A stretch of DNA of 64,000 nucleotides from the NCBI GenBank assembly GCA_031261085.1, contig JAISKB010000024.1, forward strand, positions 22,247-86,246, in the 5' to 3' direction. This stretch comes from Christensenellaceae bacterium (GTDB lineage Bacteria > Bacillota > Clostridia > Christensenellales > CAG-138). The notes below the pieces were generated by a model. That model did no database searches. It saw only the letters and a program-made list of their open reading frames with translations, and was not told where the DNA came from. The position numbers were made by a program, and so were the translations under genes. Positions 19,766 to 54,080 of the stretch are shown here, piece by piece (within the stretch, counting starts at the first letter, position 1; each line of letters starts with the position of its first letter).

Positions 19766-20018
19766 GATGGGGGCGCGGTTGGGGGGATGCTGCATAAGCC
19801 AACCCACCAACGCGCAGCCCGGGCAACGCGCCGTTTTCGGCGTTCCATACGCCGCGCCGGGGAACACGGCCTTTTTGTTGTGATTTTTAGCGTACCCGCT
19901 ATTGACCTATGTCTTAAAATGGTTTAAACTCTCACTATCAGAAAAAATTGTAAAAAACATCTTGTGATGCAATTCTAAATTTATGATAATTGTTATTTCG
20001 AGTAAATGAGGTACGATA

Positions 20019-20609
20019 ATGAAGAAATTTAATTACTGCCAATTGTTTTTGGTGGGCATTGTCCTAGTTCTTGTTTTATCAGGATGCCAATCTTACCTTT
20101 GGAAATTTGCGTGGAGACATTATTTTTTCCATATTGACGCAATTGAAGAATCAGAGCTGTCAATACGTGAGCAGGTGGAAAGTGAGAATTTCAAAACCGG
20201 TAAAATTGCAGATGTTTATTTGCGGCCTTTAATGTATGAGCGCGGTGACCCTAACCCTATTATGCTTGACTTTTGGATATATGGGAAGAATCCAGATTTG
20301 CATTTTTCGGTGAGTGCAGTGGAGATACTGGACACAGATACCGCGCAAGCAGTATTTTATTACGATGACACAGTAGCATCCTACTGGAAGCCGCCTTCGG
20401 ATGCAGATGAAGATTCTATATACAGTGCGCTTTTACAGTTTGACAAACATGTTGTAAATCTTGATGAAGAATTTCTTGAGAGCAAAGATAACTTCTTGCT
20501 GCGCGTTACGGTATGCGACATAGAAACCGAAGAGGATATTGGCACGATAGATTATATGGTGCGCCTAGTAAAAGCAACGAATTACGGGCCATGGTTTATA
20601 TTCCAATAA
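20019..20609 (+). CDS. Lipoprotein family A, copy 1 (accessory island)
   Basis: 196 aa; MKKFNYCQLFLVGIVLVLVLSGCQSYLWKFAWRHYFFHIDA lipobox; close paralog at 23503-24099. Confidence 0.85.
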   Translation: MKKFNYCQLFLVGIVLVLVLSGCQSYLWKFAWRHYFFHIDAIEESELSIREQVESENFKTGKIADVYLRPLMYERGDPNPIMLDFWIYGKNPDLHFSVSAVEILDTDTAQAVFYYDDTVASYWKPPSDADEDSIYSALLQFDKHVVNLDEEFLESKDNFLLRVTVCDIETEEDIGTIDYMVRLVKATNYGPWFIFQ

Positions 20610-20694
20610 AACGTTAAACCAGTGGGCTGCGCAATGGGTGGGTGCGGTGGAGTTGCCACAGGTGGCAAATCCTATTGATATGGGGGATAAAAGC

Positions 20695-21129
20695 ATGCGT
20701 AAAAAATTAACGATTCATCCATTCACTATATTTACGATACTGGCGACATTGTCCCCGATTGTATTCGGGTTAATCACTTTGGAAATGGCAATATCCATAT
20801 CCCCAATGATAATTGTGTTTCTTGTAATGAAATATTCTATTTATGGAAGCGGCCTGTTCTATTGGAAGCTTTTCAACTGGAAGGCTGAAAAACTTCGATT
20901 TCACATGAAATGCTTCTTGGGAATAGCGTGCTTGATGCTTTTTGTATCATTGCTTAGTGCTTTAAGTGGCGCAAGTGGTATGCAGAGTTTCACTGCATTC
21001 TTCATGCTTTGGTTTATAAACGGTATAGTAGTGTTTTTGGCCAAACTGAAAGCAGCGGAGCAAGCAGCAGCACCAACTTTTTTGAAAGATGAAGCAGAGC
21101 CAAAACAAGATGCGATGGATAAAGAATAG
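20695..21129 (+). CDS. Hypothetical multi-TM protein
   Basis: Starts MRKKLTIHPFTIFTILATLSP; several hydrophobic segments. The 5' extension in the ORF track overlaps an RHS-like scar, so the start was moved. Confidence 0.6.
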   Translation: MRKKLTIHPFTIFTILATLSPIVFGLITLEMAISISPMIIVFLVMKYSIYGSGLFYWKLFNWKAEKLRFHMKCFLGIACLMLFVSLLSALSGASGMQSFTAFFMLWFINGIVVFLAKLKAAEQAAAPTFLKDEAEPKQDAMDKE

Positions 21130-21323
21130 TTGCATTGGTTTATCTCCAGCAACTATTGAAGGGAAGCATGCCCTGCATCTTGACAAGGCAATAGCCCCGA
21201 ACCAACAGTGAGCTGCGCAACCGTATCCGGCAAGGGCACGGCGCAGTACGCGTATGACGCAGTTCTAACCGGCGCACCCGCACCGCAGCCTCAGTATCAA
21301 GGTGCTTAGTAAATGGAGGGAAA

Positions 21324-21980
21324 ATGTATTATTTTCGTTGGGCAATATCTTTATTTGGCATTATACTCGTTTTGATATTTATTAAAGCGAGAAAAAATTC
21401 TATGAAGAAGTTGCTTAAGCCTCTTAAATGGGCCATAGGCTCTATTATTGGCTTTTTGCTGATACTGTCATATTTGGATCAATATGTTTTGCCGGAAAGC
21501 AAAACCTTCACTTTTGATACACCACAACGGGCCTATGAATATGTTCATGGCCCCAAAGCTTTTCTTGGGACAATATATGGTAAGGAATCCGCGCTCGTGT
21601 TTTCCAGTCCAGAATGGGGTTCTGTCGTAAAAGAAATGGTTATCATTGGCGGTGACCAAGTTTGGAGCATCACGAAACCAAAAGATGCTCAATTCGAACG
21701 ATTGGCGACTTATGAAGGGATAACCATTATCAGTGTTTCTCATTCTAACGTACAGGATAGATATTTGATTGTATGGATAGACAATGAACCGGAAAAGTTA
21801 ACAGATATAGAGATAAATGGGAACTATGCGCGGATAGAAAAACCAAATGTACCGAACAGTTCCCTAGTTGATACATACATGTTTTGCATTGATAAGGATA
21901 CGAAGGAAGTTCAGTTAAGCGTTGGTGGCGAAATAATGTTAGCGGTGCCGTTAGGGGCAGCAATGTTAGCTGGAGGATGA
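21324..21980 (+). CDS. Hypothetical protein with N-terminal TM segments
   Basis: 218 aa ORF in AT-rich island; RBS-like GGAGGGAAA upstream. Confidence 0.6.
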   Translation: MYYFRWAISLFGIILVLIFIKARKNSMKKLLKPLKWAIGSIIGFLLILSYLDQYVLPESKTFTFDTPQRAYEYVHGPKAFLGTIYGKESALVFSSPEWGSVVKEMVIIGGDQVWSITKPKDAQFERLATYEGITIISVSHSNVQDRYLIVWIDNEPEKLTDIEINGNYARIEKPNVPNSSLVDTYMFCIDKDTKEVQLSVGGEIMLAVPLGAAMLAGG

Positions 21981-22262
21981 TGTATATGATAAGAGGCGTT
22001 ACATTTAAAATACCGCAAGCAAGGGAACCCGTTTTGTTCCGAATTCTTGATTGTACCAACAAGGAAGCAGCCGTTATCCAAGCTCTATATACAAACGCCT
22101 TCGCAAATGGGTTTACCGAAATTGAGTATATTGATGATGACAACGATGCGCGCACAAAGATGGATATTCGTTGAAGGATATTTGGTGATGGGATTAGTGC
22201 CCGAAGAAAACATGAAAGATTTACCTGAACGGGCTGCGAACGGAGAGGATGGCAACGCATGA
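21977..22262 (+). pseudogene. Small hypothetical gene split by a probable 1-nt frameshift
   Basis: Frame 1 gives ...GFTEIEYIDDDNDARTKMDIR*. A second frame resumes with AQRWIFVEGYLVMGLVPEENMKDLPERAANGEDGNA*, whose stop overlaps the next ATG. Confidence 0.5.
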
Positions 22263-22300
22263 TAGGCTTTCAATTTAAGTTCCCTAAGAAGGGGAATCGC

Positions 22301-22837
22301 ATGAGTAACACAGCTGCAGTTATACTTGTATGTTTCGCTGCAATTATAGCTGTGTCGCTATTTATTTATATGATATACGGGCATAAAGAAAGCAGTATGT
22401 ATAAAGTGGCCAAAACTATACTTATAGCTGCGGTTGCATTGATAGTTGTTTATGTAATATGCACATTTGCTTTGGTGCAACATGGGCAGGAACCAAACGG
22501 AAAAGGAATACCATATAAAGTTCTTTATGACGACGACCCGCTTTATGTTCACTTAGTAAAGCACCATTGCCCTCAATGCGGCAGCCGCTTGACGATTGGC
22601 TATGATGGCATTATCGTGCATTCAGCATCGCCAGAGGCGAAAAATTATGATTTTTCAACCGCGAATGATGTGTCGTTTAAAGGCAATTTGGAGTTCCGAA
22701 AATGTCATTTTGCTTGCCCCAATTGTGGGTTTGCGATTCCCTTTCCTGAGATGAGGAAGCTGGAAAGAGAACAGAAGAAACTGGAGAAAGAGCAAAAGAA
22801 ACTGGAAAAATCAGAGAACAGAGATGATGACGGTTAA
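22301..22837 (+). CDS. Membrane protein with C-terminal zinc-ribbon
   Basis: MSNTAAVILVCFAAIIAVSLFIYMIYG...HHCPQCGSRLTIG...CHFACPNCGFAIPF...; C-terminal KLEREQKKLEKEQKKLEK. Confidence 0.65.
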   Translation: MSNTAAVILVCFAAIIAVSLFIYMIYGHKESSMYKVAKTILIAAVALIVVYVICTFALVQHGQEPNGKGIPYKVLYDDDPLYVHLVKHHCPQCGSRLTIGYDGIIVHSASPEAKNYDFSTANDVSFKGNLEFRKCHFACPNCGFAIPFPEMRKLEREQKKLEKEQKKLEKSENRDDDG

Positions 22838-22858
22838 ATTTGGTCTGAGAGAGATAGA

Positions 22859-22915
22859 GACTTACTGGGCAGCGTAGACGGTCCTGGCGGAACTGCCTAT
22901 TACCTGTTACCATAA
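22859..22915 (+). pseudogene. RHS-core scar
   Basis: Conceptual translation DLLGSVDGPGGTAYYLLP*; nucleotide match to the DLLGSV segment of the 24108-24299 fragment. Confidence 0.5.
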
Positions 22916-22992
22916 GATTAATGAAGAAGAAGGAAGGCAGATAAACATAACATGTCCATTACTATAAATTCTTTCGAAAGGGTATCTGTCAT

Positions 22993-23406
22993 ATGAATAA
23001 AAATAAGTTTATTGCTGTGGGACGTGCTCTGTCTACATTGTTAGTGTTTATTGTGGCAGCGTTCCTATGTATTTGTTCGCACGTTGTTTTGGTGTTTATT
23101 TTTGACGATATAAGGCATGTCAATTTTTGGATTATCCTTCCCTATGCCATTTGTGCATTGCTTATCATATTGATTTTTTTCGTTGTCTTCCGTTGGAAAT
23201 GGTTGCAGAGTAAGTTTTTTGATATTGCTTATATTTGCTTTTTGGTTGTATATTTGGCATTTGATATTTGGTTTATAGTTTCGTGGTTATCTATTTTTGA
23301 CAGCATCCAGTATCAAAATGTAATTTTCCTGCTCGTGACTTTGATTGAACCTGCCGCTATAATGATATTGCATCGAATTATCAAAAAGAGAGAGAACGCA
23401 GAATAG
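22993..23406 (+). CDS. Hypothetical multi-TM protein
   Basis: 137 aa hydrophobic ORF in AT-rich island. Confidence 0.6.
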   Translation: MNKNKFIAVGRALSTLLVFIVAAFLCICSHVVLVFIFDDIRHVNFWIILPYAICALLIILIFFVVFRWKWLQSKFFDIAYICFLVVYLAFDIWFIVSWLSIFDSIQYQNVIFLLVTLIEPAAIMILHRIIKKRENAE

Positions 23407-23502
23407 AATTTCATGTGGAAAAATTCGCCTGAAGATACAACGGCGCTCCCGCAACGTATAGGCGGGCCGAATTTCCTAGCACCTAGCACAGCGAAATGAG
23501 GT

Positions 23503-24099
23503 ATGATAATGAAGAAATTTAATTACTGCCGATTGTTTTTGGTGGGCATTGTCCTAGTTCTTGTTTTATCAGGATGCCAATCTTATTATTGGAAATTTGC
23601 GTGGAGACATTACTTTTTTCACATTGATGCGTTTGAAAAATCCGAGCTATCACCACGTGAGAAATTAGAAAGCGACGATTTCAAAACCGGTAAAATCGCG
23701 GATGTTTATTTGCGCCCTTTAATGAACGAGCGCGGTAATCCAAATCCAATTTTGCTTGAGTTTGGGATATATAGCAAGGATCCAGATTTGCATTTTTCGG
23801 TGAGCGCAGTGGAAATACTGGACACAGACACCGAACAAACAGTATTTTATTACGATGACACAGTAGCATATTATTGGAACCCACCTTCGGATTCAGATGA
23901 CGATGCTATATACAGCGCACTCTTACAGTTTGATGATGATATTGTAAACCTCGATAAAGAATTCCTCGAGAGCGTAGATTATTTCTTGCTGCGCATCACG
24001 GTATGCGATATAGAAACCGAGGAGGATATTGGCACGATAGATTATATGGTGCGCCTAGTAAAAGCAACGAATTACGGGCCATGGTTTATATTCCAATAA
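23503..24099 (+). CDS. Lipoprotein family A, copy 2
   Basis: Near-duplicate of 20019-20609; likely start MKKFNYC at 23509. Confidence 0.85.
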   Translation: MIMKKFNYCRLFLVGIVLVLVLSGCQSYYWKFAWRHYFFHIDAFEKSELSPREKLESDDFKTGKIADVYLRPLMNERGNPNPILLEFGIYSKDPDLHFSVSAVEILDTDTEQTVFYYDDTVAYYWNPPSDSDDDAIYSALLQFDDDIVNLDKEFLESVDYFLLRITVCDIETEEDIGTIDYMVRLVKATNYGPWFIFQ

Positions 24100-24107
24100 A
24101 GCGTTAA

Positions 24108-24299
24108 ACCAACGAGACGCGTAACGGCGCGGGTGTGGTGGAGCTGCCGCAGGTGGAAAACTCCGTGGAGAAGAACACACGATTCGTGAACGACCTGACG
24201 CTTTCTTACAACAACCTGCTGGAAGCCAACGACCGGCAGTTCATTTGGGGCGAGCAGGACTTACTGGGCAGCGTGAGCGAAAGCGGGGAGAGCACCTAA
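24108..24299 (+). pseudogene. RHS-repeat core fragment
   Basis: Open frame without start: TNETRNGAGVVELPQVENSVEKNTRFVNDLTLSYNNLLEANDRQFIWGEQDLLGSVSESGEST*, which resembles the RHS pattern 'RFVND...YNNLL...Q-IWG-..LLGSV'. GC-rich in contrast to its AT-rich surroundings. Confidence 0.6.
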
Positions 24300-24353
24300 G
24301 ATGCGGAAGCTGGAAAGGAATCAAAAGAAACCATACTAACTTTAATTCATGTC

Positions 24354-24572
24354 TTTTTTTCCATATCTGTTGAATTATGTAAAATAAGATGTTAGAATAA
24401 GCATAATTAGTTCATTTACCACATTTTCACCTTATTGCATGGTTATGGTTCGCTATACCTTGCCCTTTTCAAAAAAACACTTTTCGCAATGGAAGGATAT
24501 TCCCGCCGTATAAGGGAATCCATTCCAAATATACGCAATACAAAGGAGAATAACGTTATGGCCGGACAGATT
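24354..24572 (+). repeat. Inverted copy of the WXG100 promoter, leader and first five codons
   Basis: Matches the reverse complement of 53188-53406 with only a couple of differences by eye; ends just after ATG GCC GGA CAG ATT (MAGQI). Confidence 0.93.
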
Positions 24573-24630
24573 CCATAAGCGCAAAGTGCTTTTTAGATTT
24601 CCTCAACTGCAACATGCGTTAGGAGTGTAT

Positions 24631-25227
24631 ATGGATCTATATAGGGTGAACTATAGCCGAGTGGTTGATTTATATTGCGAAGAAAACAGTACCCTTGCCG
24701 TTGGTTATGACATTGATTCCCATGTGCTATGGTACAGAGATGGGAAATATGACAAAGATAACGCAAAAATGAAATTGTCACATAGAATTGTTTTTTATGT
24801 GGCGCTTTTTGCGGCCTATTGGTTTCAACCTTCTTATCGTGCTGTAGCGACAGCGTTGACCGATACTTTGCTTATGCTGCTCATAAATGCGCTGGTAATT
24901 TTATGGTTCTCTAATATTATGAAAAAGCAAGCACAAATCGGAGAATTGCTACAAAAAGCAACCAATATCACAAACTTAATATTGCTTAAAAATCTACCGG
25001 CAATTAAAAAAAGGTTTAGCTTGCAAATTTCGGGTATGTTCGCTAGTATGGTTTGCTGTGTACTAGGGATATATTTGTTTTTTAAATCTCATTATTTTGT
25101 ATTTGCAGCAATAGAGTTAATCTTTTGGATGTTATTATGCGTGTTTTTTGCTATTCGTCACAAGTTATTTAATAAAAAGTACATCATTCGTCAGATAGAG
25201 CAGGGAACTTTGCCGCTGGCAAAATGA
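24631..25227 (+). CDS. Multi-TM protein family B, copy 1
   Basis: MDLYRVNYSRVVDLY...YWFQPSYRAVATALTDTLLMLLINALVILW...RQIEQGTLPLAK; paralog at 25358. Confidence 0.75.
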   Translation: MDLYRVNYSRVVDLYCEENSTLAVGYDIDSHVLWYRDGKYDKDNAKMKLSHRIVFYVALFAAYWFQPSYRAVATALTDTLLMLLINALVILWFSNIMKKQAQIGELLQKATNITNLILLKNLPAIKKRFSLQISGMFASMVCCVLGIYLFFKSHYFVFAAIELIFWMLLCVFFAIRHKLFNKKYIIRQIEQGTLPLAK

Positions 25228-25357
25228 AACCAGCTGGCGCGCGCCCATGCCACGGTGGTATTATGAACCCGCGCGTAGGAGGTCCGTTCCAATAGGTTAA
25301 ATAAGTTCAAAGTGCTTATTAAGATTTCCCCAGTTGCAACACGCGTTAGGAGTGTAT

Positions 25358-25951
25358 ATGGATCTATATAAAGTGCTTTCCAATCGCATAATTGATTTAT
25401 ATCATATCAAAGATCATGATTCTGTTATTTATTACGACCTTGATACTCATGTGCTATGGCAAAAATGCCATGTGCACAAAAAAAATAATGATAGCACTTC
25501 CAAGCATTGGATTATCTTCTACAGCTTGCTTTTGGGTTACTATTGGTTTCAGCCTAGTTATTCCGTGAATGCGACAATAATAACAGATATTTTAATTATA
25601 CTACTACTAAACATACTCATAACTATCTGGGCATACAAATTCAACAAAAAACATGCTCAGATACAAGAACTGGTACAAGCAACATCAGATATTACAAAGG
25701 TGGTGTTATTACAAAAACTGCCATTAATCAAAGGAAGGTTTTATCGGCAAGCTATGTGGCCATTTGTGAGCATATTTTGCGGCATATTAGGCGGGGGCTT
25801 ATTTTTAAGATTTCATAATCTTTGTTTCGCACTGATAGAAGTCCTTGGCTGGATGCTTATATGCGCATTTTTTACTGCTCGTCATAGGTTTATACAGAAA
25901 TGGTGTATTATTCAGCAAATTGAGCAAGGCACACTGCCGCTGACGGAATAA
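25358..25951 (+). CDS. Multi-TM protein family B, copy 2
   Basis: MDLYKVLSNRIIDLY...YWFQPSYSVNATIITDILIILLLNILITIW...QQIEQGTLPLTE; shared 5' flank GTTAGGAGTGTATATGGATCTATAT. Confidence 0.75.
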   Translation: MDLYKVLSNRIIDLYHIKDHDSVIYYDLDTHVLWQKCHVHKKNNDSTSKHWIIFYSLLLGYYWFQPSYSVNATIITDILIILLLNILITIWAYKFNKKHAQIQELVQATSDITKVVLLQKLPLIKGRFYRQAMWPFVSIFCGILGGGLFLRFHNLCFALIEVLGWMLICAFFTARHRFIQKWCIIQQIEQGTLPLTE

Positions 25952-25967
25952 AAGGAACTTGGCTAGG

Positions 25968-26110
25968 AAATATAGCGGTGGGCCATCTGAAAAGGTTCGT
26001 GAAACGGACCTACCGAAGCTGGAATACCCACATGGGATTTATCTAAATTCGAAAGCCAAATCGTTGGCAAAGTGACAGATAATGATGGAAATCTTGTAAA
26101 AACTGAATAA
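25968..26110 (+). pseudogene. Toxin-tip remnant (module 0), frameshifted
   Basis: KYSGGPSEKVRETDL... then frame change to WDLSKFESQIVGKVTDNDGNLVKTE*, matching the C-terminus of module 1 (WDFSKFGSQSVGKVKDSDGNLVKTE*). Confidence 0.6.
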
Positions 26111-26135
26111 AATTTGAGAATGAGAGGGGGTACTT

Positions 26136-26822
26136 ATGAAAACTAGAAGTGTACGGAAAATGCTAATATTGTCAATTGTAATCCTATGGTGCATCTTTAT
26201 TATTCAGGGATGCTTTAGCAGGTTTACATTAGAGTTTTTAGGTAATGGAGCCCGTTTATTCATCAATGGTGAGGAGTATATTGATGAATTTAGCGATACT
26301 ACATGGATTGCCTACCCAGATCACAATATAGTAGACTGGGAATATATTGGGAAGGTAAAGGCTTCTGAAAGAAACAAAAGCTATAAAATATATCAGTGCG
26401 ACCAGGTCCCATTGGTTTTTTTGGTGCCCATAAGCAGCATTTTCAACTATGATGACATGGCTCACTATTCTTTCCGCAAAAAGGATATGATCTTTCCTGA
26501 ATTAACAATAGAGCAAATCGCAAGTATTAATTTGCGGAGAGAATCTAATGGTGAGTGGTTGCGTGCAGAGTATAATACTGATGTCGAAATAATTTCGAAA
26601 GTACTTGAAGTTATTAAAAACAGCTCTCTAGCAGAAAATTATGGCTATGATGAATTTGATTTAACCCTAAAAAGTAATAAAACACCAACATATATTTCAT
26701 GGCATAAGGTCAGCAAAAATGACGATGGCCAGTATTTTATCCAAGTCGCCCCCGGCAACAACTATGCCCCCATCCCCCTCGAACTCCTCGAGGAAATCAT
26801 CGGCGGGCCGCTGCCGGAATAG
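26136..26822 (+). CDS. Putative immunity lipoprotein, family C copy 1
   Basis: 228 aa; signal peptide/lipobox (IIQGCFS), GNGARLFINGEEYIDEFSDTTW, C-term FIQVAPGNNYAPIPLELLEEIIGGPLPE. Confidence 0.75.
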   Translation: MKTRSVRKMLILSIVILWCIFIIQGCFSRFTLEFLGNGARLFINGEEYIDEFSDTTWIAYPDHNIVDWEYIGKVKASERNKSYKIYQCDQVPLVFLVPISSIFNYDDMAHYSFRKKDMIFPELTIEQIASINLRRESNGEWLRAEYNTDVEIISKVLEVIKNSSLAENYGYDEFDLTLKSNKTPTYISWHKVSKNDDGQYFIQVAPGNNYAPIPLELLEEIIGGPLPE

Positions 26823-26838
26823 CAGAGCCCACCACTGA

Positions 26839-27261
26839 AAGGAACCGCGCAGCCATGATACATATGTCGGCGCGCATAACAACGTGGTGGCTGCGGTGCT
26901 GTTGAAAACGCAAGGCATACGGGATAAGAGTGACCATGATGTTGCGGTTATGCATACACATCCAAATCAGTGGAACAATTGGAGCGAGGCATTCTCGGGA
27001 GGTATAGATGATGAGGGGAAATTCGAATTTGGAGATGCAACAGTGCCAAGTATACCCGGTGTAAATAGTATCTATGTTGCTACGCCAAAGGGCGTTATTA
27101 AAAAATATAGCGGTGGGCCATTTGAAACAGTGCGGGAAGTGAAATATACTGAAACAGACAATGGAAACAAAGTAGCAGAGGGGTGGGATTTTTCTAAGTT
27201 TGGAAGCCAATCTGTCGGAAAAGTAAAAGACAGTGATGGGAATCTCGTGAAAACAGAATGA
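26839..27261 (+). pseudogene. Start-less toxin C-terminal module 1 (DUF4329/JAB-like)
   Basis: Open frame from after TGA 26836-26838: KEPRSHDTYVGAHNNVVAAVLLKTQGIRDKSDHDVAVMHTHP...AFSGG...FGDATVPSIPGVNSIYVATPKGVIKKYSGGP. Confidence 0.65.
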
Positions 27262-27311
27262 TTTCACTAAATATTCGCGCAGGTCGCACATCATAGTTTT
27301 TAGGAGGGGAA

Positions 27312-28001
27312 ATGTTGGATTTCTTTGCCAAACGAGTGTTTCTCACGGTAGTTTTGTTTATCTATCTGGCTATATTCGCTGTTACTGGTTGTTCCCAAGA
27401 GGATGACCGTTTTCGAGTGAACTTTTCAGGCGATGGAATGCATCTGTTTATTGAGCAAGAAGAATTTGTAGAAATGTATAGAATTACTCTTTGGAGACGA
27501 AGGCCCGAAATAGCCGTAGATGGGGATTTTATTGGAATTACCTATAGTGGGGTTAGGAAATATGAGATTTATCAATATGAGAACCTGCCCATTATGCTAA
27601 TTCTGCCTGGGCATAAATGGACTGATACTGAAATAATACCTCCGCGTTACTACTTGCAAAGCAAGATTTGGAGTTTCCCTGAATTGTCTAATGATACGAT
27701 TAGCGGTGTTAATGTTGTCTCTGCATTGAATTACCGTTATTTACGCAAAGAATATAATACAAATAGAGCAACAATTGCGGAGGTACTTAGAATAATAAGT
27801 GAAGGAGAAAAATTCAAAAATACAGGGGAAGAAGTATATATATTATTGTTAAGTAGTGATAGTATCTCCGAATTTGTTTCAGGGCATAGTATTATGAAAG
27901 ATAGCGATAAGTATTTTATCCAAATTGCTCCCGGAGAGAACTACACATCAATTTCCAAGGAACTCCTCGAGGAAATCATCGGCGGGCCGCTGCCGGAATA
28001 G
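27312..28001 (+). CDS. Putative immunity lipoprotein, family C copy 2
   Basis: 229 aa; AVTGCSQ lipobox, GDGMHLFIEQEEFVEMYRITLW, ELLEEIIGGPLPE. Confidence 0.75.
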   Translation: MLDFFAKRVFLTVVLFIYLAIFAVTGCSQEDDRFRVNFSGDGMHLFIEQEEFVEMYRITLWRRRPEIAVDGDFIGITYSGVRKYEIYQYENLPIMLILPGHKWTDTEIIPPRYYLQSKIWSFPELSNDTISGVNVVSALNYRYLRKEYNTNRATIAEVLRIISEGEKFKNTGEEVYILLLSSDSISEFVSGHSIMKDSDKYFIQIAPGENYTSISKELLEEIIGGPLPE

Positions 28002-28017
28002 CAGAGCCCACCGCTGA

Positions 28018-28422
28018 AAGGAGCCGCGCAGCCATGCTGCATATGTCGGCGCGCATAACAACGTGGTGGCTGCGGTGCTGTTGAAAACGCAAGGCATACG
28101 AGATAAGAGTGACCATGATGTTGCGGTTGTGCATACGCATCCGCGTAGTGATGAGACTGTAGATGGCGAAGTGTTTTCAGGGGGAATCAATCCACAAAAT
28201 AAAAAGTTGGAGATTGGAGATGGAACAGTGCCAAGCATACCGGGAGTGAGCAGCATATATGTTGCTACTCCGAACGGAAACATTTTAAAATATGATGGGT
28301 CAGCGACAGAAGAGGTGCGTGGATATGAAAAGGGAAAATGGTCAGTGCCTGAAAACCAAAAAATTGGCACAGTAACAGACGACAGTGGCAGCAAAGTCAC
28401 GGTAGATTCTAATATGCAATGA
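28018..28422 (+). pseudogene. Start-less toxin C-terminal module 2 (DUF4329/JAB-like)
   Basis: YVGAHNNVVAAVLLKTQGIRDKSDHDVAVVHTHPRSDETVDGEVFSGGINPQNKKLEIGDGTVPSIPGVSSIYVATPNGNILKYDG. Confidence 0.65.
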
Positions 28423-28463
28423 TAATAAACGAAAAATTTATTATGTGGATGGATATACAGATG

Positions 28464-29171
28464 AATGGAATAAAGAATATGAAGACGATAAAGCGACTTA
28501 AATCTCTACTGGTGCTCATGCTTGCTGTGATATGCCTTGCGCTGGGATGTACCAAGAACAGCCATAACCTGAAGCTAGAGGATACGGACGATGGTGGGCG
28601 ATTGTATATTGATGGTATAGAATATGTGCGGGAATTCAGTACAACGCTGTGGACAAAAGAATATGTGGCTACCGAAGAAGAATATATAGGCAAGGTTTCT
28701 GTAAGATGGGCTCCCTGGAATGACCTGTACAAATACGAAGTATATGCATATAAAAATCAACCGTTTGTTTATCTAATGCCAAAACAACCGTTTATATCGG
28801 GATTGGTGCGCGCGATACTCCATTTTCAAAGAAAGGACATTATATTCCCAGAATTATCTGTTGAAGCGATAGACAAGATTCGTTTAATAAATGCTGCAGA
28901 CTATGAACCACTGAACACAAAATATAATACCAATAAAGAAACACTGCAAAAATTGCTCGAAATAATCCACGGAAACGAGCGAGCACATGATATTGGATGG
29001 GAAAAACTCTATTTAACATTAGTTAGTGACGCAAGCCCAGAATATTGTTCTTGGCACTCTATATCCGAAAACAACGGGCAATATTACATCCAAGTCGCCC
29101 CCGGCAACAACTATGCCCCCATCCCCCGCGAACTCCTCGAGGAAATCATCGGCGGGCCGCTGCCGGAATAG
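28464..29171 (+). CDS. Putative immunity lipoprotein, family C copy 3
   Basis: MKTIKRLKSLLVLMLAVICLALGCTKN lipobox; GRLYIDGIEYVREFSTTLW; HSISENNGQYYIQVAPGNNYAPIPRELLEEIIGGPLPE. Exact start uncertain (28419/28464/28479). Confidence 0.75.
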   Translation, partial: NGIKNMKTIKRLKSLLVLMLAVICLALGCTKNSHNLKLEDTDDGGRLYIDGIEYVREFSTTLWTKEYVATEEEYIGKVSVRWAPWNDLYKYEVYAYKNQPFVYLMPKQPFISGLVRAILHFQRKDIIFPELSVEAIDKIRLINAADYEPLNTKYNTNKETLQKLLEIIHGNERAHDIGWEKLYLTLVSDASPEYCSWHSISENNGQYYIQVAPGNNYAPIPRELLEEIIGGPLPE

Positions 29172-29187
29172 TAGCGTCCACCGCTGA

Positions 29188-29622
29188 AAGGAGCCGCGCA
29201 GCCATGCTGCATATGTCGGCGCACATAACAATGTGGTAGCTGCGGTGCTGTTGAAAACGCAAGGCATACGGGATAAGAGTGACCATGATGTTGCGGTTGT
29301 GCATACGCATCCGACTTTGGATTATGATGGCGGCGAAGTGTTCTCCGGCGGACAATATACCTTAAATGGGCAAACTTATTCCGATCACTTTTTTGGAGAT
29401 GCAACAGTACCAAGCATGCTAGGTATTGACAGCATATATGTGGCTACCCCAAAAGGTGATATTTTGAAATGGAGCGGAAGCCCCTCTGGCCCGGTGCGTG
29501 GAACAGAAGAAATAAAAATCTCTGAAACAGAAACAGTAAACGCATGGACAAGACTTGACGGGCAAAAAGCAGGAATAGTTACGGATAAAAATGGTAACAA
29601 AGTGCAAAATGTTGAGGATTAA
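29188..29622 (+). pseudogene. Start-less toxin C-terminal module 3 (DUF4329/JAB-like)
   Basis: VVAAVLLKTQGIRDKSDHDVAVVHTHPTLDYDGGEVFSGG...FFGDATVPSMLGIDSIYVATPKGDILKWSGSPSGPVRG. Confidence 0.65.
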
Positions 29623-29655
29623 CGTTGCACGCAATAACGAAAGGAGATAGGAAGA

Positions 29656-30384
29656 ATGGGCTTTTCTAGTTTTCGAAGCAGCGTTTTTCTATTGCTCACG
29701 GTTCTTTCACTCATCTTGAGCGGATGTTATGCACCGAAAAACAGAGTCAACATAAGTAAAGCTGCCGATGGCATACACGTATTTATTAATGACGAAGAGT
29801 ATGCGGAGCATACAGTAGAAAGCCTTCAGTCCCCAACTATATGGAATGTATTGAACCGAGTAAAGCGGGAAAAATTGGGTGTTTTCGAAGAAGATGGAGT
29901 AATATATGAGATATACCAATATGAAGATTCGCCGCACTTATTCGTTATGGATACCCCGAAGTTTTTAGGGAAAATAGGCATCGGCGTGCCAGGAATGCAT
30001 AATTTGGCGAAGAAAGACTTTATCTATCCTGAGCTAACTACTGAAGCGATAACAGGCGTCAACATTGTAGACTTTCAATCTGCAGAGTGTTTGCGTGCAG
30101 AGCACAACACTGATGTGGAGACTATAGCCAAGGTGCTTAAAATTATAAATGGAAGCCCTCAAACAACCGACATAACAGAACTTCAAATCGTTCGGGAAGA
30201 ATATGACTTAATATTGGCCAGCGATGCATTACCTAATTGTGTTGCTTGGCATGTTATACTTAAGAAGGATGACCAATATTTCATAAGGATTTCTAGGGAA
30301 AAAGAGTACTCCATTATTCCAAAGGAGCTTTTAGAGGAGGTTGTCGGCGGTCCATTACCTGCGGAAGTAGGGTATCAGCACTGA
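29656..30384 (+). CDS. Putative immunity lipoprotein, family C copy 4
   Basis: 242 aa; LILSGCYAP lipobox, ADGIHVFINDEEYAEH, ELLEEVVGGPLPAEVGYQH. Confidence 0.75.
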   Translation: MGFSSFRSSVFLLLTVLSLILSGCYAPKNRVNISKAADGIHVFINDEEYAEHTVESLQSPTIWNVLNRVKREKLGVFEEDGVIYEIYQYEDSPHLFVMDTPKFLGKIGIGVPGMHNLAKKDFIYPELTTEAITGVNIVDFQSAECLRAEHNTDVETIAKVLKIINGSPQTTDITELQIVREEYDLILASDALPNCVAWHVILKKDDQYFIRISREKEYSIIPKELLEEVVGGPLPAEVGYQH

Positions 30385-30390
30385 GCAAAC

Positions 30391-30561
30391 TACACAGCGC
30401 ATAGCATATATGTAGCTACACCTATAGGTGATATTAGAAAATATAGCGGAAATCCAATTGGGCCAGTGCGCGGATATGAAGAAGGAAGATGGACAGAACC
30501 GGAAGAACAAACAGTGGGTACAATAGTGGATGGTGAAGGTAATCCTGTAAAAATACAATAA
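30391..30561 (+). pseudogene. Toxin-tip remnant (module 4), 3' half only
   Basis: NYTAHSIYVATPIGDIRKYSGNPIGPVRGYEEGRWTEPEEQTVGTIVDGEGNPVKIQ*; the HTHP half is missing. Confidence 0.6.
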
Positions 30562-30616
30562 TTAATCGAACTGCTCGATCTTAGTATACCAACCGTTTTT
30601 TCTTGGAGGTTTTTAT

Positions 30617-31336
30617 ATGCGCACAGCACAATTACGCAAAGTTTTAAGGTTGATTGTTTTCTCCTGCGTTTGCACTCTGCTTTTTACGGGCTGTTTCAGA
30701 ACTAGTGATAATTTGCGCTTAGAATATGGCGAAGATGGTATGCATTTGTATGTTGATGGGATTGAGTATGTGGAACGATTTAGTAGCGAGACACTATGGG
30801 ATAATTGGAGTAACCATGATACGGCCATGGAATCGGAACCGGAATGCATTGGCCAAGTTGTTGCCACAATACGAAATAAGAAAATACAGTATGACGTGTA
30901 TCGGTACAAGGATTTCCAAGACTTTATATTCACCATGCCACGGCAAACGATGTTTGATTTTGAACTGCTTCCGCTTTTTCATTTTTTCCAAAAAGATATT
31001 GTTTTCCCGGAATTAAGTGCTAACACAGTAAATCATATAGGAATATTGCGTTCATCGGATCTTAAATTGCTAGGTATTACGGGCATTGAAAATAATGAGG
31101 TAATCTCCAAAGTATTAGCCATTATTAATGGAAAAGCAAGAGTAAAAGACAATGGGTGGGAAAATTTCTATATAATGCTCACCAGTGATGCCGTGCCCGG
31201 ATTTGCTTCTTGGCACTCCATATCCGAAAACAACGGGCAATATTACATCCAAGTCGCCCCCGGCAACAACTATGCCCCCATCCCCCGCGAACTCCTCGAG
31301 GAAATCATCGGCGGGCCGCTGCCGGTGAAACCGTAA
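30617..31336 (+). CDS. Putative immunity lipoprotein, family C copy 5
   Basis: 239 aa; LLFTGCFRTSD lipobox, GEDGMHLYVDGIEYVERFSSETLW, HSISENNGQYYIQVAPGNNYAPIPRELLEEIIGGPLP. Confidence 0.75.
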   Translation: MRTAQLRKVLRLIVFSCVCTLLFTGCFRTSDNLRLEYGEDGMHLYVDGIEYVERFSSETLWDNWSNHDTAMESEPECIGQVVATIRNKKIQYDVYRYKDFQDFIFTMPRQTMFDFELLPLFHFFQKDIVFPELSANTVNHIGILRSSDLKLLGITGIENNEVISKVLAIINGKARVKDNGWENFYIMLTSDAVPGFASWHSISENNGQYYIQVAPGNNYAPIPRELLEEIIGGPLPVKP

Positions 31337-31391
31337 AGCGGACAACCAACAATAAGGCTGGTATAAACGAATATGCTGAGTATTAATACAA

Positions 31392-31488
31392 AATGCAATG
31401 TCCCGCTTGCTAATCGCCGGATTGCAAAAACGGGGTTTTGCTAATTTTTTGCTAATTGGCACTTGTAACGCGCGCAGTCCCTTGCGTT
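31392..31488 (+). repeat. Inverted partial copy of 53766-53904 with 42-nt internal deletion
   Basis: ATGCAATGTCCCGCTTGCTAATCGCCGGATTGCAAAAACGGGG...GCTAATTGGCACTTGTAACGCGC.CAGTCCCTTGCGTTA read in both places. Confidence 0.9.
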
Positions 31489-31581
31489 ATACGGATTCAC
31501 CGATTTTATAGGACACATTTCGCTATGGCGCCGGAACATTTTAGAATACAATTGCTTCAGGTCACTTGAGGAGAGAATTTA

Positions 31582-31650
31582 GTGTACTGTAAAAAATGTA
31601 GGAGCATTTTTGCTGACGAAATAAATATTGATCCATACAGACTCCCTTGA
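31582..31650 (+). pseudogene. Truncated zinc-ribbon ORF
   Basis: GTG start after GAGGAGAG: V/M-YCKKCRSIFADEINIDPYRLP*; only the first CxxC knuckle remains. Confidence 0.4.
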
Positions 31651-31708
31651 CATCCCACCGAATTGTACATACAATAGTCAAAATAAACTGCGGAGGCTAT
31701 ATTATATA

Positions 31709-32173
31709 ATGAAACGATATATCGCAATGTCGATGGCCGCCCTGTTATGCATGCTTGCGGGTTGTGCTGGTTTGCGCACCCGTCATGTGATAACCGCCGA
31801 AAAGTTCCAAAAGGTTATGGAAAAAGCCGGGTATACAGTGTTGGATATGGGCAGCGAGGCATATAAAGCCGCAGGGGTGACGCAGGTTTTGCAGGCAGTA
31901 AAGGGTGCGGATGTAGGCGCCATCTTTTTTGTGGGTGAAACGACAGAAAAGGCGGAAAAAGTATTTGGCAGTTATAAGGAGCTCTCCGATATCAACCGGG
32001 AAGCGAACGATACGCTGGAGGAAACCGCCGGTAAAAACTTTGTGGCCTACGAGCTATCCTCCAGCGGTTCGTATTATTATTTTGCCCGGGTAGACAACAC
32101 CCTGCTCTATTTCTTTGGCCCTGCCGATGAAAAAAATGAAATCGATCGGCAGATTAAAGCCTTAGGTTATTAG
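31709..32173 (+). CDS. Hypothetical lipoprotein
   Basis: MKRYIAMSMAALLCMLAGCAGLRTRHVITAEKFQKVMEKAGYTV; lipobox LAGC. Confidence 0.75.
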   Translation: MKRYIAMSMAALLCMLAGCAGLRTRHVITAEKFQKVMEKAGYTVLDMGSEAYKAAGVTQVLQAVKGADVGAIFFVGETTEKAEKVFGSYKELSDINREANDTLEETAGKNFVAYELSSSGSYYYFARVDNTLLYFFGPADEKNEIDRQIKALGY

Positions 32174-32337
32174 AAACCATCGTTATTCAGGATTAAGAAG
32201 GTTTATTTTGGAACCCCCTATGATGTAAAGTCGGAGTGTTCCTCTATTTTCGTGCGTTCACAACATATATAATTACATTTACAACAGAATTCTATTTTAA
32301 AAAATAAAAAATATTATAATTAGTTAGTTTATATGTT

Positions 32338-32372
32338 ATATTTGTACGGATTTTTGATGTCCGTACAAATAT
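32338..32372. repeat. Perfect 13-bp inverted repeat upstream of the giant surface protein
   Basis: ATATTTGTACGGA-TTTTTGATG-TCCGTACAAATAT read directly, about 135 bp upstream of the start codon. Confidence 0.8.
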
Positions 32373-32506
32373 TCTGTGTATTCTCGCCTAAAATGGTTTA
32401 TTTATGTTACGTCGATATATAACGGCAGACAGCGAGACGAGTGCTCATATAGCCACAATACAAGGTCTTATTAATCGTTACAACATGGATGTGGGGGAAT
32501 AAAAGG

Positions 32507-35500
32507 ATGATAAAGAGCGGCACTTCGTTTAAGGGCAGGGCAGCTGCGGCGCTTCTTGCGCTGTTGATGGCATTGAGCACCATAACAACCACCGTCATGC
32601 CGCTGATATCCGTGGCATATGCGGAGGAGGAAGAAGACGGCGAAACCGAGGAACCATCCGGCGGTTTTATGGCGCTGGGTATTACCCCGCCGGCGAACTT
32701 TGTGTTTGTGCCGGAAACCGGTACGATTACAGGGTATATCGGCACGGATACCGATATCGAGATACCGGATATGATCGAGGGCACGGCGGTTACCGCCATA
32801 GGCCCCAGCGCTTTCTTCCAAAAAGGACTCACTTCGGTTATACTGCCGGAGGGGCTGGTGAGCATTGGCGCCAACGCCTTTGCGGATAACCAAATTACCT
32901 CCATCACACCGTTGCCTTCCACGCTCGCGAGCATCGGCGCCAGCGCCTTCCAAAGCAACCTGCTCACATCGCTTACGCTGGAGAGCGGCATATCCATAGG
33001 GAATTATGCCTTTCGCAACAACAGCCTAACAACGCTGGTGCTGCCTTCAAGCCTAACGTCTATACCCAGGGGCGCGTTTATGGAAAACGAGTTATCTTCG
33101 GTGGATCTATCCAACATAACGGAGCTGGGTGATTCCGCATTTGAGGCCAACAGCTTTGACACGGTGGCTTTGCCAAACACGCTTACCGCCTATGGCAACC
33201 GTGTGTTTGCCGGTAACGGCAAGTATGTTATAGTGACCGGCGGCAACGGCTTGCCCTACACATATTCCGTCGCCGGCAGATTTGGTGAGTTGGTGAACCC
33301 CCGCACCCTCACGATTAAGTTCCAAACGCTGGAAGGGCAAACCCTGATGTCCGACAAGGTGCTCACCAACAACGTGAATGTACAAGCCGCCGACATAAGC
33401 GGCCTCATTTACGAGGGCAGCACCTATTCCTATACGCCAGCGGCAATAACCGGCTATGCGTATGCCGGGGAATCCCCGGTGCTGATACCCATACAGGGCA
33501 ACACCACGCATATCGCGCAATATATGGATGACAACCACCCGCCGATTTTTCAGGGCCTAACCACCATCATTGTGGAGCCGGGCGGCACGGTGGACTTGCG
33601 CGCCGGGGTAACGGCGATGGACGTGCACGGCAACGACCTTACCGACCGCATCAATATCAATTCCTCCTTACTCGACCTAAACTACGCGGGCATTTATTCG
33701 ATAACATATAAGGTGACCGATGAAGACGGCCGCACCACCACCGCTTACCGCCGCGTGATAGTGGGCAGCGACCCGCTGCTGCTAAGCGTGGGCAACGGTT
33801 GGATTTATGGCGACTTTACCTATGATGGGGATATTCTTACCGGCCTTTCGGATGCTGGCAAAACCAAATATGCCACCAAAAAAGATGTAGTCCTGCCGGG
33901 TGAAAACCCGCTTACGGGCGACCCGTTGGTGACCATAGCGGATAACGCGTTTAACGAGGATGGTTACAGCGGCTGGCGGAGCGTTGACTTTAACAAGCTC
34001 ACCGCGCTGCGCACGATAGGCGCCGGCGCGTTTGCCCGCGCGCCCATCACCGCGCTGGATGTTACCCGCAACAAGGCGCTGGTCACGATTGGCGAGGCCG
34101 CGTTCCGCGATGCGCAATTGTTATGGCTCGATTTGGCCGGCTTGCCCAACCTCGAAAGCATAGGCGACGCGGCGTTCAACAGCTCGCCCTTAATCGAGCT
34201 GTTTGTGCATGACTGCCCAAACCTGCGCTTTATAGGCACCGAAAACGCCACCAGCGCCGCGCAGGGCGTGTTTGCCAACGCCGTGCTGACCGCGCTCGAT
34301 TTTACCGGCGATGCCAAGCTCGAAACCATAGGCGGCTGGGCGTTTAACAAATCGCCTATCACCCTGCTCGACTTCACACTCCTTGCGGGCTCGCTCAAAG
34401 TGCTGGGCAACGCGGCGTTCCATAGGGTGCCGCTTTCGCGCATGACGGGGCTTGCGAGCTGCGTAAACATAGAGGTGCTGGGCAACCTCACCAGCGGCGG
34501 CAACGCGGACGCCTCTATTTTTGCGACCAATTCAGCGAGCATGAACAACATCTTCTATTCCTATCAAATTATCGATGGCGCGGGCATGACCAAGCTGCGG
34601 CAGATAGGCAACTATGCGCTTGCAAACCTTCAGATGGTAGCGGGCTTCCAGGAGCTCATTATCAACAGGCCCAATTTGGTATATATTGGCGACTATGCCT
34701 TTTATATGACCTCTATTATACCTATTAGCGACCTTACGCCATACGATGGTTACTCTTCCTTCTCCTCCTCCTTTTCCTCCATGTATGCCTATCCGGATAT
34801 CAACCTATCCGCCAGCAAAAACCTTGCCTATGTGGGCGACTACGCGTTTTTCCTTGGCACGGTGCAGATGTTTCGCCCCAGGGATGGGGCTTTCCCTTCG
34901 CTGGCGAATTACGCCGGAGCCGTGGGCGCTGGCACTGGCAGCTACCCGGGAACACTGGTTTTAACGGGCCTTAATAAGCTGCGGTATATCGGCGACTATG
35001 CGTTTACTTCTATGGGTCGCTCTGTACTAAGCATATCCGGCTTAACGGGGTTGGAGCATTTGGGCGCGTACGCGTTTGAGCAGTTGTATGCCGTAGACAG
35101 CGTGGATTTTTCGGATATGAAAAAACTGCGGGAGATCCCCGCTGAGGTTTTGCGCGGCATGAACAGCGACGGCGCGCTGTATATTACCGATGATATTACG
35201 GCCTTGGATGGCAGCATAGTGCGCAAGCCCAGCACGGATGCGGCGCTAATTGACCCGCAGCGCAGGCTGTGGGTGTATACCGAAACAGTGGAAGGCACCC
35301 CGCTGGTGGATTTCTTATATACCTACGACGCGGCGGCCAGCGCCGCAACCTCTACGATGATATACATCAATAAGCTGGGCTATCGTGCCAACATCGTGGA
35401 TGAAAACGGGATCCCCATCACCAACCCCCGGCAGCAGGTAATACCGCTTTCGTACTTGGGCCGGCCCTACGAGGCGCCGGCGCCCAATGTGGCGGGCTAT

Positions 35501-52031: not shown

Positions 52032-52061
52032 GCAGCCTTTGCTATAGGGCCCCCAGCCCAC

Positions 52062-52823
52062 TTACGATATTACGCCCCACTCCTTCAGCGTTTGTGTGTT
52101 GGCAATTTTGCGCCGTTCCAGCTCCGCAAGGGCAGCCGCATATAATTCGGGGTCGTTGTAGACTTTGTCACGTGAACCGGCTATGGTTGCAACCACACCA
52201 TCGTAGATTAAATCGTAGTGTTGTTTATAATCTCCACCCGATTCGCCGCGTTCCACCCTTCCCATTGCATCATCTAAATGCTTTTGAAATTCTTTCATAA
52301 ATGTTTCATGGTTATCCGCTTTAATCAGCAAAAGCGAATCATATTTGAATTTTTCGGCACATCCAATCATATCTATGCGGTATTTCTTATAGAACGCAAT
52401 GCAGTCATTTAAGTCGTGAACGATTTCAAGTTTTGGCAATATGATTTCCTGTGTTTTTGTGCATGCAAAGTGCATTTTTTCGCATATATCAGATGGAACA
52501 TAATTAATTGCAACAATCTCCATGCGTTGCTCAAAATTGTAATCGTATCCCACATAGTTAATCAAATCACTTGCACCAAACGCTAACCATTCCTTTTCTA
52601 ATGTTTCGGTATAAATCGAACGAATGCCAGCGGAAATTGTAAAAGCTTTATACCTCGGCGTACCTGTAGGTAATTTTCGTAAACTTAAATAATGCAAAAC
52701 CTCATCACTAGCCATGCGCATAAAAAACTTATTCTGTTTCACATATAAGAAACCTTGCGGCAATAGAATTTGTCCAAGCATATTTTTAAAAGCAGTATTT
52801 AACGTTGGCATATTCCCTTGCAT
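52062..52823 (-). CDS. Hypothetical protein downstream of WXG100 gene
   Basis: 253 aa; MQGNMPTLNTAFKNMLGQILLPQGFLYVKQNKFFMRMASDEVLHYLSLRK...; AT-rich relative to flanks; same strand as the WXG100 gene. Confidence 0.7.
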   Translation of the reverse strand: MQGNMPTLNTAFKNMLGQILLPQGFLYVKQNKFFMRMASDEVLHYLSLRKLPTGTPRYKAFTISAGIRSIYTETLEKEWLAFGASDLINYVGYDYNFEQRMEIVAINYVPSDICEKMHFACTKTQEIILPKLEIVHDLNDCIAFYKKYRIDMIGCAEKFKYDSLLLIKADNHETFMKEFQKHLDDAMGRVERGESGGDYKQHYDLIYDGVVATIAGSRDKVYNDPELYAAALAELERRKIANTQTLKEWGVIS

Positions 52824-52908
52824 TTAGAATTCCTTCTTTAATTTATATTTATTGAATTACCCTATGGCGTTGAGGCCGCGTTTGTGTGTAAAACAGGGGT
52901 TCGGAGCA

Positions 52909-53202
52909 TTAGTTCCTAAACTTGCTGGCGATGTCCTGATCCAACTGTTCCACAGCATTGGCGGTGCCGTCCAGCTGCGAGCCGATGTCGTCGAGCAGCT
53001 GCTTCATCGAGTTAAAGGCAGGCTTGGGCGTTTCAAACTGCTGTGCAAACTGCGCGCTCGCTTGGCCTTCCCTCTCATCCTGCAGCACATTGATGATGCT
53101 CTGCATCTTGTTGACTACGTCCTGAAAGTTCTGCCCCTCCGTGCGTACTTCTCCCGCGCGGCCGCACATTTGTTCCGGGGTCATTCTAATCTGTCCGGCC
53201 AT
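52909..53202 (-). CDS. WXG100-family (ESAT-6-like) protein, REG in place of WXG
   Basis: MAGQIRMTPEQMCGRAGEVRTEGQNFQDVVNKMQSIINVLQDEREGQASAQFAQQFETPKPAFNSMKQLLDDIGSQLDGTANAVEQLDQDIASKFRN; RBS AAAGGAG. Confidence 0.8.
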   Translation of the reverse strand: MAGQIRMTPEQMCGRAGEVRTEGQNFQDVVNKMQSIINVLQDEREGQASAQFAQQFETPKPAFNSMKQLLDDIGSQLDGTANAVEQLDQDIASKFRN

Positions 53203-53406
53203 AACGTTATTCTCCTTTGTATTGCGTATATTTGGAATGGATTCCCTTATACGGCGGGAATATCCTTCCATTGCGAAAAGTGTTTTTTTGAAACAGGGCA
53301 AGGTATAGCGAGCCATAACCATGCAATAAGGTGAAAATGTGGTAAATGAACTAATTATGCTTATTCTAACATCTTATTTTACATAATTCAACAGATATGG
53401 AAAAAA
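53188..53406 (-). repeat. WXG100 promoter/leader cassette (inverted partner of 24354-24572)
   Basis: Reverse complement nearly identical to 24354-24572; includes TTGAAT-N17-TAGAAT. Confidence 0.93.
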
Positions 53407-53765
53407 TCCTGGCAACGTGGCAAGAGAAATATATTGTTGGACAATTCCCCTTCGGCGGCAGGAAGGCTTGGCAGGGGGATATAGGGGTGCTTTTCAGCGC
53501 AAGACGATAAAGCACTCCACGATGGAGACGGTGCACAATACAGGAGATGCACCTACGTTTGGCGCTTCTCTTTTCATATGCCGCATCGTCATCCTTATTC
53601 TGCGGCAGAAACAGCGAGAGCAGCAACCGCACAGACCGCTTCGCCTTGATACCGCATTATGATGCAGTCCACAGCAGCGTCGAGCGATGTCGCAAAGGTA
53701 CTGGAGCTGTTGAACAAATCGCCAGAGCTTACCGCCCAACTGCTGCAACTTTTGGACGGCGTGGT

Positions 53766-53904
53766 AACGCAAGGGACTGTGCGCGTTACAAGTGCCAATT
53801 AGCAAAAAATTAGCCCGAAAAAACGAGCGATTAGCAAAACGGGCTAAAAAATTAGCAAAGCCCCGTTTTTGCAATCCGGCGATTAGCAAGCGGGACATTG
53901 CATA
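53766..53904 (-). repeat. Inverted partner of 31392-31488, with extra 42-nt hairpin segment
   Basis: Direct comparison of both sequences. Confidence 0.9.
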
Positions 53905-53947
53905 AGGAGCGAAATTGAGGCAAAAGGCGTGTGTACTGATTAGCAAA
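53799..53947 (+). repeat. Cluster of five ATTAGCAA octamers
   Basis: ATTAGCAA at 53799, 53831, 53852, 53883 and 53940, plus one ATTAGCCC. Confidence 0.85.
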
Positions 53948-53978
53948 AATGCAATCGCGGCAAACATGTGGGGAACGA

Positions 53979-54003
53979 AAAAAGCCCCATTTCTGGGGCT
54001 TCG
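53979..54003 (-). terminator. tRNA-Arg terminator
   Basis: Minus strand GAAGCCCC-AGAAAT-GGGGCTTTTTTC. Confidence 0.75.
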
Positions 54004-54080
54004 TGGCGTTCCCGGCGCGATTCGAACGCGCGGCCTACCGCTTAGGAGGCGGTCGCTCTATCCTGCTGAGCTACGGGAAC
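54004..54080 (-). tRNA. tRNA-Arg (anticodon CCT), CCA encoded
   Basis: Minus strand GTTCCCG...CGGGAAC-G-CCA; anticodon arm ACCGC-CTCCTAA-GCGGT; T loop TTCGAAT. Confidence 0.94.

Follow-up and report, generated by a model that had tools for sequence, protein, structure and literature searches.

How the start of a WXG100 gene came to lie, cut off from the rest of that gene and in inverted orientation, in front of an array of immunity-like genes is the question raised by this locus. The window (the whole 64,000-nt stretch of DNA that was analyzed) was compared with itself by BLASTN, and the two copies of the repeated element, A and B (Table 1), aligned over 219 columns with 99.1% identity (E about 1e-107). 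The inter-arm distance was 28,615 bp, and the orientation was inverted. Base-level alignment showed one substitution (T/C) and one 1-nt indel, with all other positions identical. The initial annotation, which had described a 219-bp segment repeated in inverted orientation approximately 29 kb away with about two differences, was therefore accurate. It had also placed the end of homology right after codon 5 (MAGQI), and the boundary was indeed sharp: homology ended after ATG GCC GGA CAG ATT, i.e., ...ATGGCCGGACAGATT, beyond which copy A continues with CCATAAG and copy B with AGAATGA.

Table 1 Features of the window that bear on the origin of the repeated element
Feature	Position	Strand	Basis or remark
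Immunity-like lipoprotein unit	20004..20669	+	duplicated at 23494-24160, 86.8% over 667 bp
GC-rich (58%) fragment ...RFVNDLTLSYNNLLEANDRQFIWGEQDLLGSVSESGEST-stop just upstream of copy A, Rhs/YD-core-like by motif resemblance only	24101..24300	+	translation
Copy A of the 219-bp element: promoter, 5′ leader, RBS and WXG100 codons 1-5	24355..24572	+	99.1% to copy B
Predicted sigma-70-like extended -10 promoter, TTGAAT-N17-TAGAAT	copy A 24370..24398; copy B 53391-53363	+ (copy A)	consensus match 9/12 with TG; weak evidence
Local leader hairpin, same in both copies	24490..24527	+	z = -2.76 for 24484-24530, a stretch picked after looking
Cut-off WXG100 reading frame MAGQIP-stop (copy A)	24558..24578	+	translation
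Toxin-like 3′ tail ...SAKCFLDFLNCNMR-stop, out of frame with the WXG100 start	24575..24633	+	position and frame suggest a toxin
Putative membrane immunity gene, first downstream of copy A	24634..25227	+	paralogue at 25361-25951
Five paralogous immunity-like lipoprotein genes (26136, 27312, 28419, 29656, 30617)	26136..31336	+	aligned with two paralogues on contig C26
DUF4329-like toxin C-terminal fragment lacking the N-terminal half	26875..27258	+	PF14220 E = 3.7e-5, under the curated cut-off
Further DUF4329-like fragments	28054-28320, 29224-29607, 30400-30558		repeats by tblastn
Partial, inverted iteron element where the lipoprotein array ends on the right	31393..31489	+	58 bp 98.3%, 50 bp 98.0%
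Gene directly after the WXG100 gene	52062..52823	-	no Pfam, NCBIfam or PADLOC match
WXG100 (EsxA-like) gene, the only one in the genome	52909..53202	-	PF06013 E = 7.4e-18
Copy B of the 219-bp element, upstream of the intact WXG100 reading frame	53188..53406	-	
TTGCTAAT iteron element between the WXG100 gene and tRNA-Arg	53765..53903	-	5 iterons at 53798-53946
tRNA-Arg (CCT), boundary of island B	54004..54080	-	ARAGORN and Rfam

The element was not a common one. Further copies, which the initial annotation had proposed to look for, were not found: the whole 2.22-Mb assembly contained two. None was found in 40 relatives, and a search of 397 genomes of the order (own genome included) returned elsewhere only matches of 32-48 bp (38-43 bits), which occurred in four members of the order and were judged to be due to chance. 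The element was not found in phages, and no exact 25-mer of it was found in viral contigs. With two copies in the genome and none in the 396 other genomes of the order, a generic dispersed repeat or mobile element was ruled out; a generic repeat had been named in the initial annotation as a finding that would refute it.

The TTGAAT-N17-TAGAAT promoter motif, the AAAGGAG and the MAGQI start noted in the initial annotation are all present in both copies, together with an extended -10 TG. The leader, by contrast, did not live up to its description as structured. Taken entire, it folded no better than dinucleotide shuffles (z = -0.33), and the hairpin listed in Table 1 is local. A known riboswitch or other RNA family was ruled out for the leader, because Rfam matched two tRNAs in the window and nothing else. 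An open frame through the leader of copy B is disrupted by the 1-nt indel, so a leader peptide is not conserved.

Copy A lies in an island (island A, 19,766-32,488) of 41.0% GC, compared with 56.4% for the genome, in which no other stretch of 12.7 kb has so low a GC content. In island A, immunity-like genes for lipoproteins and membrane proteins, present as duplicates, take turns with toxin-like tail fragments that are truncated at the 5′ end. The proteins of the lipoprotein genes at 20019 and 23503 were 85% identical, and DUF4329-like fragments sit between the lipoprotein genes farther to the right (best PF14220 match, E = 3.7e-5, below the curated cut-off). No relatives of the lipoprotein family were found in species genomes. 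Judging from this arrangement, the lipoprotein and membrane genes of the array are putative immunity genes. The DNA between islands A and B is occupied by ordinary genes (adhesin, peptide transporter, sigma-54, NtrC-type regulator) at 55.8% GC; a 2793-aa surface protein with BspA-type LRRs and SpaA domains is encoded there (32489-40870). The flanking genes used to look for an empty site in genomes of the same genus (NtrC-type regulator, peptidase) had no clear syntenic orthologues there.

Paralogues of the lipoproteins encoded at 26-31 kb in island A were found on contig C26 (32258-32992 and 33160-33870), and further ones were found at the end of contig C2. The array on C26 is an Rhs cassette array and is the next lowest-GC contig region after island A; it contains three Rhs_assc_core matches over the cut-off (37.6-44.4 kb), with RNase and NlpC/P60 C-termini. 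These lipoproteins of island A are accordingly homologous to those of cassettes of a recognizable polymorphic toxin gene. The C26 array, with its lipoproteins and its cassettes for Rhs C-termini (RNase PF00545, NlpC/P60), corresponds to L024:8015-20000 and L025 (G000:C26:32-44.7 kb). Contig C26 ends within an Rhs gene, the 5′ part of which was not found in the assembly.

Copy B lies in a second island (island B, 52,032-53,999; 44.9% GC), which is bounded by tRNA-Arg and holds the WXG100 gene and a gene of unknown family, but no toxin. The WXG100 protein matched the family profiles over its whole length (PF06013, 65.1 bits, cut-off 27.3; TIGR03930, 66.9 bits, cut-off 44.85) and also matched the EsxA structure 3zbh in the PDB (E = 2.6e-16). 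On sequence, it is a clear relative of EsxA. The W-x-G motif was absent from it, and the position of the helical turn reads R-E-G. No relatives of the protein were found in species genomes or in viral contigs. Among the 61 genomes searched, WXG100 genes over the cut-off occurred only in this genome and in the relative G019, so the gene was probably imported. A weak WXG100 match in genome G001 was rejected as a chemoreceptor-like protein. No toxin gene is present between the WXG100 gene and the gene that directly follows it, which is possibly an orphan immunity gene.

An EssC was not found in the genome, the assembly of which is incomplete (95.5%; 28 contigs). One FtsK/SpoIIIE-domain protein was present (842 aa, contig C17, one domain match), and the EssC of G019, used as the query, matched nothing besides this protein. 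G019, which has an EssC-like ATPase and three WXG100 genes, encodes at L041:6833-10434 (G019:C14) three consecutive proteins with a common N-terminus (MRVFYSTAVRDD...) and differing C-terminal domains; these are probably T7SS substrates.

The 219-bp element was not the only segment shared by the two islands. The iteron element that lies between the WXG100 gene and tRNA-Arg has a partial, inverted copy in island A (iteron cluster at 31407-31456). The TTGCTAAT sequence occurred 21 times in the genome, with clusters of three or more at these two places only. The iterons beside the 3′ end of the tRNA resemble integrase arm sites and are possibly of that kind. No attL copy of the tRNA-Arg end was found within the window. 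Elsewhere, a 77-bp copy (93.5%) of the 3′ half of tRNA-Arg(CCT) and the adjoining downstream sequence, with no complete tRNA gene, was observed at L051:358-434 (G000:C9:358-434) and looks like the remnant of an integration site; a long tandem repeat of TGTC stands at the start of the same contig (L051:1-100, G000:C9). Leader copies and iteron copies were 98-99% identical, whereas the other duplications of island A were 80-88% identical, so these two copying events are more recent than the remaining duplications there. The source of both copied segments is a single 716-bp stretch, but islands A and B carry them in permuted order; one simple block duplication is therefore insufficient to account for them.

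The initial annotation had read the repeat as the recent copying of a regulatory cassette. Recent, sharp-ended copying of the promoter-leader-five-codon segment is upheld by the 99% identity, set against 80-88% for the other duplications of island A, and by the sharp ends. The part of the claim in which the cassette moves as a functional unit fared less well, because the surroundings of copy A fit a scar better. Copy A lies amid toxin-like fragments and orphan immunity-like genes and abuts the remnant of a toxin tail, and a second segment (the iterons) was copied as well. For these reasons, we consider that copy A is rather probably a scar, left by a WXG100-toxin-immunity module that was duplicated or displaced not long ago.

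If so, the WXG100 gene whose 5′ end forms the element would be the first gene of a polymorphic-toxin module in the order WXG100 helper, toxin, immunity. Duplication or displacement of such modules would have taken place between two related toxin-immunity islands, both acquired horizontally. Island B would have kept the entire WXG100 reading frame and lost the toxin. Island A would have kept only the severed WXG100 start, out of frame with a toxin-like tail and with a putative immunity gene behind it.

The junction to the right of copy A agrees with a scar of this kind. A duplicated family composed of a toxin-like tail and then a membrane gene begins there after 2 nt, and its tail reads ...DFLNCNMR-stop in a frame other than that of the WXG100 start. 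This repeat family, which starts at 24575, has a second member from 25301 (88.6% over 70 bp), and the membrane proteins encoded from 24634 and 25361 were 46% identical; the first of them had no Pfam match and no convincing NCBIfam match. The layout is that expected from a deletion that began at WXG100 codon 6 and stopped shortly before the end of the toxin behind it. On the left, copy A is flanked by the Rhs-like fragment and by a short fragment (37 bp, 84%) akin to the gene at 22259 in its 3′ part. Two further observations favor the scar: the only WXG100 gene of the genome is without the W and without a toxin, and the iteron segment, from the same source, is also inverted in island A (98%). 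The low GC content of island A, the kinship of its lipoproteins with those of the Rhs cassette array, the DUF4329-like fragments between the lipoprotein genes and the pairing of WXG100 with an Rhs toxin in Listeria (PMC10327511) point the same way.

Other observations count against it. Neither the rest of the WXG100 gene nor the segment 53407-53760 was found in island A, so we can only infer an earlier, longer copy of the module that was later deleted, and a recombinational event behind it. With 1% divergence between the copies, the loss of both flanks would need to have been quick. A distance of 6.8 kb separates the leader copy from the iteron copy, and their order is circularly permuted. The Rhs identity of 24101-24300 was read from the translation, with no support from HMM or tblastn searches (HMM/BLAST), and no direct link between the WXG100 gene of this genome and an Rhs toxin has been preserved.

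The first alternative is that the promoter, leader and start of the WXG100 gene were captured: copied ahead of orphan immunity-like genes and kept because the antidotes were then expressed with the toxin helper gene. In agreement with this, every base of the promoter, leader and RBS was kept except for one substitution and one indel, and the next gene has the same direction, starts 55-56 nt after the MAGQIP stop and has its own RBS-like TTAGGAG. There is also a parallel in E. coli EC93, in which an upstream promoter drives co-transcription of an orphan immunity region (PMC3150448). However, at 1% divergence too little time has passed for the conservation of copy A to be evidence of selection, and there is a weak terminator-like stem at 24577-24591. 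Promoter-like matches are, moreover, common in this AT-rich DNA, and their density in island A was near that expected by chance (50 found vs. 35 expected). We regard promoter capture as unlikely. The broader proposal that toxin islands reuse the promoter, leader and start of a helper gene as a portable expression head, by which stranded immunity genes come under the control of the WXG100 module, is a little more doubtful still. Were it true, orphan antidotes would be made when the weapon is. If the copied promoter is active, it would give orphan immunity genes a simple route to stay expressed after loss of the toxin, which is difficult to study in islands of Gram-positive bacteria.

Template switching during replication could have brought two short patches, one of 218 bp and one of about 100 bp, into island A as inverted copies of parts of 53.2-53.9 kb, with no larger module involved. 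Two short, sharp-ended, inverted patches of 98-99% identity from one 716-bp source are what it predicts, and a T-run at the left end is a possible microhomology. But the element stands right before a toxin-tail and immunity-like unit, which is where the remains of a module are expected and which random patches would reach by coincidence; we consider template switching improbable. A chimeric join in the draft assembly is very improbable, because, although there are 28 contigs and the Rhs-rich C26 breaks within an Rhs gene, the copies are not quite identical (one substitution, one indel), have wholly different flanks and lie deep inside an 86-kb contig, in which the flanks of copy A run into repeat families of the same island.

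A module scar thus remains the reading that we prefer. The locus is of an ordinary kind; what is of interest here is its recent rearrangement, in which the start of a T7SS helper gene meets a putative orphan immunity array at a clear junction. The T7SSb loci of Listeria, which pair a WXG100 gene with an Rhs toxin (the EssC8-linked LrhA), carry orphan immunity genes and include one variable region with a tRNA gene as its boundary (PMC10327511), are similar in the association of a WXG100 gene with toxin/immunity genes, in their orphan immunity genes and in their tRNA boundary. They differ in that the present locus has no EssC, no intact toxin and a degenerate WXG motif, and its islands share an inverted start segment. 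Orphan cdiA-CT/cdiI and rhs-CT/rhsI arrays contain serial immunity genes with toxin C-terminal fragments (PMC3150448, PMC3967940). Island A resembles them in its serial immunity-like genes after 5′-less toxin-like C-terminal fragments and in its paralogous cassettes on C26 in an Rhs region. Unlike those arrays, in which a fragment of the toxin core is left behind, island A has retained the start of a helper gene (WXG100) that is nearly identical to a distant inverted copy, and most of its families are unannotated.
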